A stretch of 41,480 nt of DNA from a virus. The position numbers were made by a program, and so were the translations under genes. Positions 8,739-10,880 of this stretch are shown here, piece after piece; position 1 is the first letter of the stretch, and each line of letters opens with the position of its first letter. The DNA lies in the IMG/VR virus record IMGVR_UViG_3300025645_000022, positions 1 through 41,480 of that record; one strand, given 5' to 3'. Below the pieces are notes generated by a model. It worked only from the letters and a program-made list of their open reading frames with translations. It was not told where the DNA came from and did not search any database.

Positions 8739-9013
8739 TTAGTAAAATAATGGAAATGTCGCCAAATAAAGCAACTCATTTTATTGCTCTAGGAGACTTT
8801 AGCGGTATAAGCATTGAATTTTATGTAGTTAACGATAAAGAGCTAAAGGTGTGGCTTGGTGACGAGTGGGTTGACATTAAAGGCTTTAAAAAAGAGCCGG
8901 AAAACCTCATAAGTCTTAATAAATACCGTTGGAATATCAAGGATTATTATGTAAGAGCTGTATTGTCTATAATAGCACTTACAATACCTTGCTGGATTAA
9001 ATTATGGCTCTAA
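8735..9013 (+). CDS. Small membrane-anchored protein, paralogue-like to the previous gene
   Basis: 92 aa from ATG 8735, which overlaps the upstream stop (ATGA) and follows GGGGTG. 'SPNKATHFIALGDFSG' matches the 'APEGATHFATISG' start of its neighbour, and a single membrane helix (about 72-91, 'AVLSIIALTIPCWIKLWL') closes it. Its stop overlaps the Mu F-like gene by 10 nt, so cargo translation runs straight into the head gene. Confidence 0.68.
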   Translation: MISKIMEMSPNKATHFIALGDFSGISIEFYVVNDKELKVWLGDEWVDIKGFKKEPENLISLNKYRWNIKDYYVRAVLSIIALTIPCWIKLWL

Positions 9014-10059
9014 ATGACGAGTTACTAGCTCACCACATTAACACGCTAAAGCTGGCTGCTAATGCAGCTAAAACTGTTAATCCATATCTTGACGAGATGA
9101 AGCAAATCATACGCAAGTCAGTTGCTGGATTTGATAGCGATAAACGCACTGCTAAGCGATTAACTACGCTAATCAATACACTTGCTAGTCAGTTAAATAA
9201 ACCTTCTGGTAAGTGGCGTAAAGAGCTTGAGGCGCAATTAAAAGACTTTGCCAAATACGAGGCCAACTATCAGGCCTCGACTATTGGCGGTTGGATTGAT
9301 GCGGAATTAACCCAGCCTACCGTTAACCAGGTATGGGCTGCTGCACAATTTCAACCTGTGAGTATTGGCGCAACCAAAGCTGTCGAGCTGACTACCTTAC
9401 TCGATACGTGGGGAGTGAATGAAGTTAACAGGTTAGTGATGGGTGTTAAGCTTGGGTTTACTCAAGGCTTATCGACTAATCAAATTATCCGTAACGTAGT
9501 TGGTGCCGGTGGATTATCTGACATATCGAAGCGTGAAGCCAAAGGCGTAGCCCATGATGCAATTATGCACATGGCAAACGCCGCTAGATTTGAAACGTAT
9601 GCAGAGAATGACGATATTATCATTGGTTATGAATTAGTGGTTACTCTTGATGGTAAAACGTCTGACATATGCGCTGCATGGCCTACAGGTAAGATTTACA
9701 AGCCTACTGATAATTATCAGCCTATGCCGCCATTTCATCGATTCTGTCGCACTACTACTGCACCAGCACTATCACCTGAGTTCGATATATTCGACCAAGG
9801 CGCTACGCGATCAAGTAAAGGTGCCGATGGTGGTAAGGTGGTGTCAGCAGATACAACATATTACGGATGGCTAGCGGATCAACCGTTTGAGTTTCAAGAT
9901 ATGCGACTTGGCAGGACTAAGGGGTTAATATTCCGTAACGCTGGATTAACCACGGAAGAGTTCAGAAAGCTATCAGTAGATGATTTGGGTCGCGGCTTAA
10001 CTATTGATGAAATGGCTAACGAAGATAATAAAGTTAAAATATATCTAGGCAAGCGTTGA
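9004..10059 (+). CDS. Minor head protein, Mu F / SPP1 gp7-like
   Basis: 351 aa. N-terminal helical region, then the Mu F-type domain: 'LGFTQGLSTNQIIRNV', 'AHDAIMHMANAARFETYAE', and the C-terminal pattern 'TSDICAAWPTGKIYK...MPPFHRFCRTTTAP' with conserved Cys and His. This family sits inside the head near the portal and helps head morphogenesis or DNA exit. The stop TGA lies inside the -35 box of the downstream promoter. There is no extra toxin-like domain at the C-terminus. Confidence 0.88.
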   Translation: MALNDELLAHHINTLKLAANAAKTVNPYLDEMKQIIRKSVAGFDSDKRTAKRLTTLINTLASQLNKPSGKWRKELEAQLKDFAKYEANYQASTIGGWIDAELTQPTVNQVWAAAQFQPVSIGATKAVELTTLLDTWGVNEVNRLVMGVKLGFTQGLSTNQIIRNVVGAGGLSDISKREAKGVAHDAIMHMANAARFETYAENDDIIIGYELVVTLDGKTSDICAAWPTGKIYKPTDNYQPMPPFHRFCRTTTAPALSPEFDIFDQGATRSSKGADGGKVVSADTTYYGWLADQPFEFQDMRLGRTKGLIFRNAGLTTEEFRKLSVDDLGRGLTIDEMANEDNKVKIYLGKR

Positions 10060-10084
10060 CATTAAATTAATATTGATACATTAT
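10056..10084 (+). promoter_or_regulatory. Promoter of the structured RNA / tRNA locus (TTGACA-17-CATTAT)
   Basis: Perfect -35 TTGACA 10056-10061, 17-bp AT-rich spacer, -10 CATTAT 10079-10084 (an overlapping TATAAT lies at 10082-10087). It lies over the stop of the upstream gene and faces the non-coding region, with a predicted transcript start near 10091. Confidence 0.7.
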
Positions 10085-10090
10085 AATCAA

Positions 10091-10490
10091 ACGATGCCAA
10101 CTGCGAAGTGTTGACGCTCTCGAATAACTCTGTTGTATATGGGTTGTTTAAAATCTTGACGATGGGAAAGACCATGCTTGCGAGTTACCGCCCGTGCGGT
10201 TTATTATATTGTAAAGGTGTTTGTGTGGAGCGTGCAGGTTGTTAGTGGTCGGCCGGCAGCTAACGTAACATTCGTGTAGTCGATGTCTGTGGGTATCCCA
10301 TACAGACACCTTTACAATGTGATAATCAAATGCGTTGAAGATTGGTTAGCAGATAGCGCACTGCAATCACATTAAGTTGTTATTTCATTCGATAATAAGG
10401 ATGGTGATAATATCTGCCAGCTACGAGGCTATGACTAGCGCGCAAAGTAAACGCTGTGAATATCCTGAAGCGTATACGATGCAACAAATT
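10091..10490 (+). ncRNA. Candidate large structured non-coding RNA next to the tRNA genes
   Basis: About 400 nt without a credible reading frame but full of helices. Pairings seen: TAACTC 10125-10130 / GAGTTA 10182-10187; ACCGC 10187-10191 / GCGGT 10196-10200; a 21-bp helix 10208-10228 / 10298-10318 including two G-U pairs; GTTAG 10241-10245 / CTAAC 10260-10264; GTGAT 10319-10323 / ATCAC 10366-10370, stacking on the 21-bp helix; TGCG 10331-10334 / CGCA 10357-10360; AGGAT 10398-10402 / ATCCT 10462-10466; AGCG 10437-10440 / CGCT 10452-10455. It has its own strong promoter and is followed by two tRNAs. Large phage RNAs such as GOLLD and ROOL occupy similar positions next to tRNAs, but I recognise no signature of either. 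It may be one RNA, or a short one ending near 10210 plus a second. Confidence 0.6.
10208..10318 (+). repeat. 21-bp inverted repeat enclosing a 69-nt loop (RNA helix)
   Basis: Left arm 10208-10228, right arm 10298-10318. The 13 outer pairs are perfect Watson-Crick; the next eight include two G-U pairs, which favours an RNA helix over a DNA-binding site. The loop has its own hairpin (10241-10264). Confidence 0.8.
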
Positions 10491-10492
10491 CG

Positions 10493-10579
10493 GGAAGTAT
10501 CGCATAATGGTATTGCAGCGGGTTGCTAACCCGTAGTCGAGAAATCGGCTTATGGGTTCGAGTCCTATTATTTCCGCCA
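10493..10579 (+). tRNA. tRNA-Ser (anticodon GCT)
   Basis: 87 nt with encoded CCA. Acceptor stem GGAAGTA / TATTTCC, discriminator G, D arm GCA...TGC, anticodon stem GCGGG / CCCGT around loop TTGCTAA (GCT, reads AGC/AGT), long class-II variable arm (AGTCGA...TCGGCT) as expected for Ser, T arm ATGGG-TTCGAGT-CCTAT. Complete cloverleaf. Confidence 0.95.
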
Positions 10580-10583
10580 ATTT

Positions 10584-10660
10584 GCTCCACTGGCGCAACC
10601 GGATAGCGCAAGGTGTTTCTACCGCCTAGGTTACAGGTTCGAATCCTGTGTGGAGTACCA
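10584..10660 (+). tRNA. tRNA-Arg (anticodon TCT)
   Basis: 77 nt with encoded CCA. Acceptor GCTCCAC / GTGGAGT (first pair G-U), D arm GCGC...GCGC, anticodon stem AGGTG / CGCCT around TTTCTAC (TCT, reads AGA), T arm ACAGG-TTCGAAT-CCTGT. Only 4 nt after tRNA-Ser, so the two are co-transcribed. AGA is a rare Arg codon in many gammaproteobacteria and is used in this phage. Confidence 0.95.
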
Positions 10661-10686: not shown

Positions 10687-10836
10687 ATGAGCGATAAGCA
10701 GCAAGATAACACTGTAGTAAACGTTTACTCTCAAAGGCCAGCAATTGTAATTACTGAAAGCGTTGGCCATGCAGAGGTTGTCATTGAATTTGCCACCAAA
10801 GAAGATTACGGTTATTACAAATCGCTTGAAGATTAA
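10687..10836 (+). CDS. Small hypothetical protein after the tRNAs
   Basis: 49 aa beginning MSDKQQDNTVVNVYSQRP, ending 'YGYYKSLED'. It lies 26 nt after tRNA-Arg and is followed by a strong terminator, so it would share the RNA/tRNA transcript. Ribosome site weak (ATGGTG). Beta-strand-rich middle ('AIVITESVGHAEVVIEFAT'). No known family; its reality rests on codon pattern and position. Confidence 0.5.
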   Translation: MSDKQQDNTVVNVYSQRPAIVITESVGHAEVVIEFATKEDYGYYKSLED

Positions 10837-10854
10837 CTATATCTACCGCCAACT

Positions 10855-10880
10855 AAAACCAGCTTAATTGCTGGTTTTTT
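10855..10880 (+). terminator. Terminator closing the RNA/tRNA unit
   Basis: 8-bp stem AAACCAGC (10856-10863) / GCTGGTTT (10870-10877), loop TTAATT, T tract to 10880. Confidence 0.85.

Follow-up and report, generated by a model that had tools for sequence, protein, structure and literature searches.

Comparative computational analysis of positions 10092–10490 revealed a predicted non-coding RNA with covarying helices, signals of a separate transcription unit, and a conserved complement of the 3′ tail of 16S rRNA. The window, i.e., the whole stretch of 41,480 nt that was analyzed, comes from an IMG/VR phage record that is kin to Shewanella phage 3/49. We see an even chance that the locus represents a new modular family of structured ncRNAs of Shewanella phages, which would dock on the 30S subunit via the 16S 3′ tail. 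The original prediction had suggested a new structured RNA family, and this was supported by the absence from Rfam, the many phage homologues, the covariation, and the lack of a conserved frame; what it had missed was that the RNA is modular, that it has a 3′ core bearing an anti-SD (Shine-Dalgarno) complement and a pseudoknot, and that the unit has a terminator.

The Locus and Its Predicted Transcript

The locus occupies the gap (10060–10492) between a Mu gpF-like gene (9004–10059, Pfam Phage_Mu_F) and the genes for tRNA-Ser (gct, 10493–10579) and tRNA-Arg (tct, 10584–10660), both found by tRNA prediction and by Rfam; the promoter, the RNA modules, the tRNAs, and the terminator described here are all on the plus strand. 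As noticed before, the region runs into these two tRNAs and has a consensus promoter at its 5′ end, a sigma-70-type TTGACA-17-CATTAT at 10056–10084 with equivalents upstream of most homologues. A TTGACA/TTGACG-type promoter was present in 20 of 26 loci, lying 145–597 nt 5′ to the reference point, compared with a background of 4–8% per 620 nt; the −10 pattern was partly fitted to the loci, and the strict TTGACA background was 4.4% per 620 nt. The promoter-to-core distance varied among homologues, many of which had a downstream terminator. The intrinsic terminator of the window (CCAGCTTAATTGCTGG-TTTTTT, 10859–10880) sits after the tRNAs, and the ncRNA of 3/49 and of L031 (L numbers designate loci) runs directly into it. 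The end of the gpF-like gene, the promoter, and the terminator are common to the window and to 3/49. Between the tRNAs and the terminator lies a 49-aa plus-strand ORF (10687–10836), the start region of which recurs 3′ of the tRNAs in L006 and L007.

From these promoter and terminator signals, 10092–10490 is the 5′ part of a predicted independent transcription unit. This unit most likely extends from the promoter to the terminator through both tRNAs and the small ORF, with a predicted length of ~790 nt. The RNA had been proposed to measure about 400 nt: its structured non-coding nature stood, but its end at 10490 did not.

The minimum free energy of the fold was −128.4 kcal/mol, compared with −110.7 ± 5.2 kcal/mol for shuffled sequences (z = −3.4; none of 100 shuffles was as stable). 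The ORFs of at least 60 aa are all antisense, overlap the tRNAs, and match no Pfam family, in line with the earlier reading that the region holds no credible ORF; no frame was conserved among the homologues. The predicted RNA of the locus is non-coding. The tRNA and tmRNA models matched the two downstream tRNAs only, and not 10090–10490.

Homologues in Shewanella Phages

Distant blastn searches recovered homologues in Shewanella phages 3/49, 1/4, 1/40, and 1/41, and later matches were obtained in phages ZP9 and 1.076.O, the recorded host of the latter being Shewanella; all six named phages come from Shewanella or sea-ice Shewanella isolates. About 20 further homologues were found in environmental phage contigs by pattern scans of viral contigs. 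The homologues occupy at least nine gene contexts in phages of 35 kb to 139 kb. Two subtypes were distinguished, and the models built for them (R1 for subtype 1, R2 for subtype 2) each found members of the other: R2 matched 1.076.O (L102, E = 6e-8) and L012 (E = 4e-5), and R1 matched L093 (E = 4e-4), L096 (E = 0.007), and 1.076.O (E = 0.007). In R2, the S1 helix is displaced by one column, with a slight effect on this mainly sequence-driven model.

The plasmids searched gave no match, and R1 found none in 369 gammaproteobacterial genomes, a set in which Shewanella chromosomes are not distinguishable; Shewanella prophages may still carry the RNA. Two R2 matches in the same genomes (L103 and L104, E ~1e-3) were judged to be due to chance; L103 is coding sequence that lacks the core. 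Most of the homologues stem from a single host genus, and the effective diversity is lower than their number because several share recent ancestry. This predicted RNA family is carried by many unrelated Shewanella phages.

The adjacency to tRNA genes was seen in the window and frequently in the homologues, the RNA preceding tRNAs in the window, L006, L007, L009, L017, 1/4, ZP9, and 1.076.O. The original prediction had missed that this adjacency is not constant: tRNAs are absent in close relatives, and 3/49, L031, L059, L076, L093, and L096 have no tRNA at the RNA, which is followed by its own end or by an ORF.

A Modular 5′ Part with Variable Loops

The RNA is built of modules: hairpins at the 5′ end, a long helix that covaries and surrounds a variable loop, and at the 3′ end a conserved core (10380–10482). 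Eight inverted-repeat pairs were found, in agreement with the at least eight complementary segments reported earlier, and the homologue comparison called for then showed strong covariation in the helices. Four 5′ modules, A, B, C, and C′, are present or missing depending on the homologue. Module A (10094–10176) comprises a hairpin GCCAAC...GTTG, a helix AATAAC/GTTGTT, a conserved TTTAAAATCTTGAC, and a small hairpin around GGGAAAGACC; it is common to the window, 3/49, 1/41, L006, L009, L017, and L076, and the compensatory variants GCTAAC/GTTAG and GGC-AAAGA-GCC were noticed by eye. Module B is a hairpin, ACCGC-CCGT-GCGGT (10187–10200), with seven distinct arm pairs in the homologues, all fully paired, a result equaled by 1 of 5000 arm reassignments. 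In module C (10208–10318), the helix described before (21 bp, two of them G-U; 10208–10228/10298–10318, within inverted repeat I1) closes a variable apical region. Its 19 distinct arm pairs had 98% of positions paired, compared with 71% when the 3′ arms were reassigned (0 of 5000 as good), and helix C is the best supported of the predicted 5′ modules. Helix C′ (10316–10373), an inverted repeat seen in most homologues, pairs AATGTGAT (10316–10323) with ATCACATT (10366–10373) and encloses a second variable loop.

Almost no conservation was seen in the loops that C and C′ close, and in several relatives these loops hold tRNA pieces; six copies of a T-arm motif were counted in 5754 nt of ncRNA, compared with none in 159804 nt of background. 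Elements resembling tRNAs, ~90–120 nt long and framed by long helices, were also observed in L003 (4186–4307) and downstream of the core in L098 and L063. These elements are possibly tRNA mimics; one is an annotated pseudo-tRNA in phage 1/4, and ARAGORN makes no call in L098 and L063.

The unit is interrupted by other sequences in some relatives. An HNH homing-endonuclease-like ORF (L097:1904–2446) and an Rfam int-alpA RNA (L097:1862–1931) lie just upstream of the core in ZP9, and part of the sequence upstream of this int-alpA recurs in the L098 ncRNA. The unit of L034 (600–1300, minus strand) appears interrupted because a short ORF upstream of helix C adjoins its 5′ arm; the helix arms still pair. 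A MITE-like element of 167 bp with imperfect inverted ends of ~17 bp interrupts the unit of L017 (6395–6561), just 3′ of the core, is also seen in L009 and L015, and had no match among phage records. A conserved string, ATTCCGCAGCACYTT..., follows the core or the tRNA in L059, L034, L097, and L098 and is possibly another module.

The 3′ Core and Its 16S rRNA Complement

The 3′ core (~10380–10482) consists of an SD hairpin (P2), a mini-pseudoknot, and a GNRA-type hairpin (P3). P2 (10380–10412), with the SD stretch in its 3′ arm and loop, is a recurring shape whose energy support is weak (mean z of −0.9). The mini H-type pseudoknot (10416–10439) is formed by S1 (10416–10418/10427–10429) and S2 (10420–10423/10436–10439), and P3 (10442–10482) by GCA/TGC, a 2×2 internal loop, GTA/TAC, and ACGCT/AGCGT; both are supported by covariation. 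When 13 sequences were aligned by MAFFT and left unedited, 94% of the cells of the pseudoknot and P3 were paired, and the covariation score was 0.333 versus 0.126 for shuffled data (0 of 500), with all register shifts at or below 0.06. Across 23 sequences aligned by hand, with stems assigned by hand, six S1 variants and eight S2 variants were found, and every one pairs. A blind pseudoknot scan compared with shuffled sequence gave modest single-sequence significance, its range missing L009, L031, and 1.076.O. The P3 loop is of the GNRA type in most homologues and measures 13 nt in the window. About 20 nt separate the SD from the pseudoknot in ZP9, and L094 is a minimal copy reduced to the core (~75 nt).

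The extended SD stretch TAAGGATGGTGAT (10396–10408) is complementary to the 16S rRNA 3′ tail GAUCACCUCCUUA, which is standard for gammaproteobacteria. Each subtype has a stretch in P2 capable of this pairing. Its hybridization energy in the window, −15.7 kcal/mol, ranked second among 82916 22-mers of the phage, the top gene RBS reaching −11.5 kcal/mol. Energies ranged from −9.7 to −22.2 kcal/mol across 23 homologues, and in 15 of the 16 homologues tested the site outranked every other site in the surrounding RNA; that of L006 is weak (−9.7 kcal/mol) and is beaten by another site in its own RNA. L098 and L094 match the 16S tail over 12–13 nt. The complementarity is kept in changed sequences (AAGGATGGTGAT, AAGGGGTGGTC, GGAGGTGGTCC, GGGGGTGATCC, and AAGGAGGTGATC); since differing letters keep the pairing with the 16S tail, often through G-U, this argues for selection on RNA pairing.

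No start codon, frame, or peptide following the SD was conserved in the homologues, early stops were scattered, and the lengths of the spacer between the SD and the pseudoknot differed by non-multiples of three. The SD stretch is thus not an ordinary RBS. An ATG stands at a usable spacing in L007, L076, and L091, and some copies could therefore be translated as tiny ORFs. Co-folding with the 16S tail gained 6–17 kcal/mol and left P3 intact. Nested folding gave the SD average or below-average accessibility, and docking would thus need P2 to open. We rejected the idea that the SD folds back onto helix C by pairing with its CACCTTT strand, because L076 and L095 keep the SD and have no CACC there.

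Comparison with Known RNA Classes

The predicted RNA fits the broad class of large structured phage ncRNAs, being non-coding and multi-helical with covariation and having its own promoter. The Rfam search proposed with the original prediction, run on the window and the homologues at gathering and relaxed thresholds, matched only tRNAs, plus int-alpA in ZP9; neither the GOLLD nor the ROOL model gave a match at either threshold. Like GOLLD, the present RNA is phage-borne, lies by or contains tRNAs (though not in every homologue), is large and rich in helices, and combines a variable 5′ part with a conserved 3′ part; it differs in size and core. GOLLD, the nearest parallel in the literature, was reported to bind ribosomes in pull-downs and to hold tRNA fragments in its linkers (PMC12286853). 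An SD-type 16S complement is a hallmark of the present RNA, whereas the term “Shine” is not mentioned in that GOLLD paper. ROOL is likewise a large phage ncRNA with pseudoknots, found near tRNA islands, from which the present RNA is set apart by its modular body with variable inserts and its SD core.

The abundant ~800-nt ncRNA of Vibrio phage ICP1 (PMC7567579) is also a large ncRNA of a gammaproteobacterial phage, but ICP1, unlike the present locus, has no tRNAs. Kinship was rejected, as R1 and R2 had no match in the ICP1 region (L089). This highly expressed RNA (L089:98–1108) ends in GAATATCTAGGGAGACGTCCCGA, which faintly resembles the L006 core GAATATCTCGGAGGGGAACCGA. By the tests made, the predicted RNA is not GOLLD, ROOL, or the ICP1 RNA.

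The rpsO-type regulators, which act by 30S entrapment, also combine an SD with an adjacent small pseudoknot, and this arrangement could plausibly keep a 30S subunit bound without initiation. However, they regulate an ORF in cis, whereas the SD of the present RNA serves no downstream ORF, tRNAs or a terminator coming next in the window, 3/49, and L031. The rpsO and alpha-operon leader pseudoknot models gave no match in relaxed scans of the window, the ZP9 core, and the L094 core.

Possible Function

A more far-reaching reading, which we consider somewhat less likely than not, is that of a dedicated ribosome-docking phage RNA, in which an extended SD without a start codon, followed by the pseudoknot, would capture 30S subunits. 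It may act as a translation-control or counter-defence device with swappable tRNA-bearing modules, shared by phages that are unrelated to each other but infect the same host genus. In our main reading, given an even chance above, the RNA would be expressed and accumulate during infection, and it would dock on the 30S subunit by 9–13 bp with the anti-SD tail as P2 opens. The pseudoknot and P3 are predicted to fold just downstream of the docked SD, and since no start codon is in register, docking would occur without ordinary initiation. The most likely outcome would be that 30S subunits are held or tuned, with SD-led host initiation lowered or the rRNA tail protected, and the tRNAs, like the loops that vary in the 5′ part, would be exchangeable cargo.

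Alternatively, the RNA may serve mainly as a scaffold or cage made of RNA only, as in the GOLLD/ROOL type, with tRNAs or other molecules as its cargo; the SD-like stretch would then be an accessory or a contact between subunits. The setting is the same (phages with tRNA arrays), the RNA is large and ornate with a predicted unit of ~790 nt, and tRNA fragments lie in the variable loops as in the GOLLD linkers (PMC12286853). We nevertheless consider this unlikely, since Rfam gives no GOLLD or ROOL match, the most conserved part follows the 16S tail, and the ~75-nt minimal copy L094 is too small for a cage subunit. It seems quite doubtful that short leader peptides are initiated at the SD and, through their translation or through stalling, control the downstream tRNA region or genes: the strength of the SD is real, and ATG or TTG stands at a workable spacing in L007, L076, L091, and ZP9, but start codon, frame, and peptide are unconserved, spacers are non-multiples of three, early stops differ, and only a terminator follows the RNA in 3/49 and L031.

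The absence of tRNAs from 3/49, L031, L059, L076, L093, and L096, where the RNA's own end or an ORF comes next, makes it improbable that the RNA is a leader guiding maturation by RNase P/RNase E or protecting the tRNA transcript, even though tRNAs lie immediately next to it in the window, L006, L007, 1/4, ZP9, and 1.076.O. Finally, inserted ORFs, tRNA pieces, and a MITE-like element mark the region as recombinogenic, and its structure could be fortuitous, in tRNA-flanking junk spread by recombination without any functional RNA. This is hardly credible, being contradicted by the covariation in four helices, the conserved promoter/terminator pairs, and the conserved anti-SD complementarity.

The locus adds an RNA family that is absent from Rfam, and because this family is small and modular, occurs in named cultivable Shewanella phages, and has an explicit predicted target in the 16S rRNA 3′ tail, it would make the role of large tRNA-adjacent phage RNAs directly testable.
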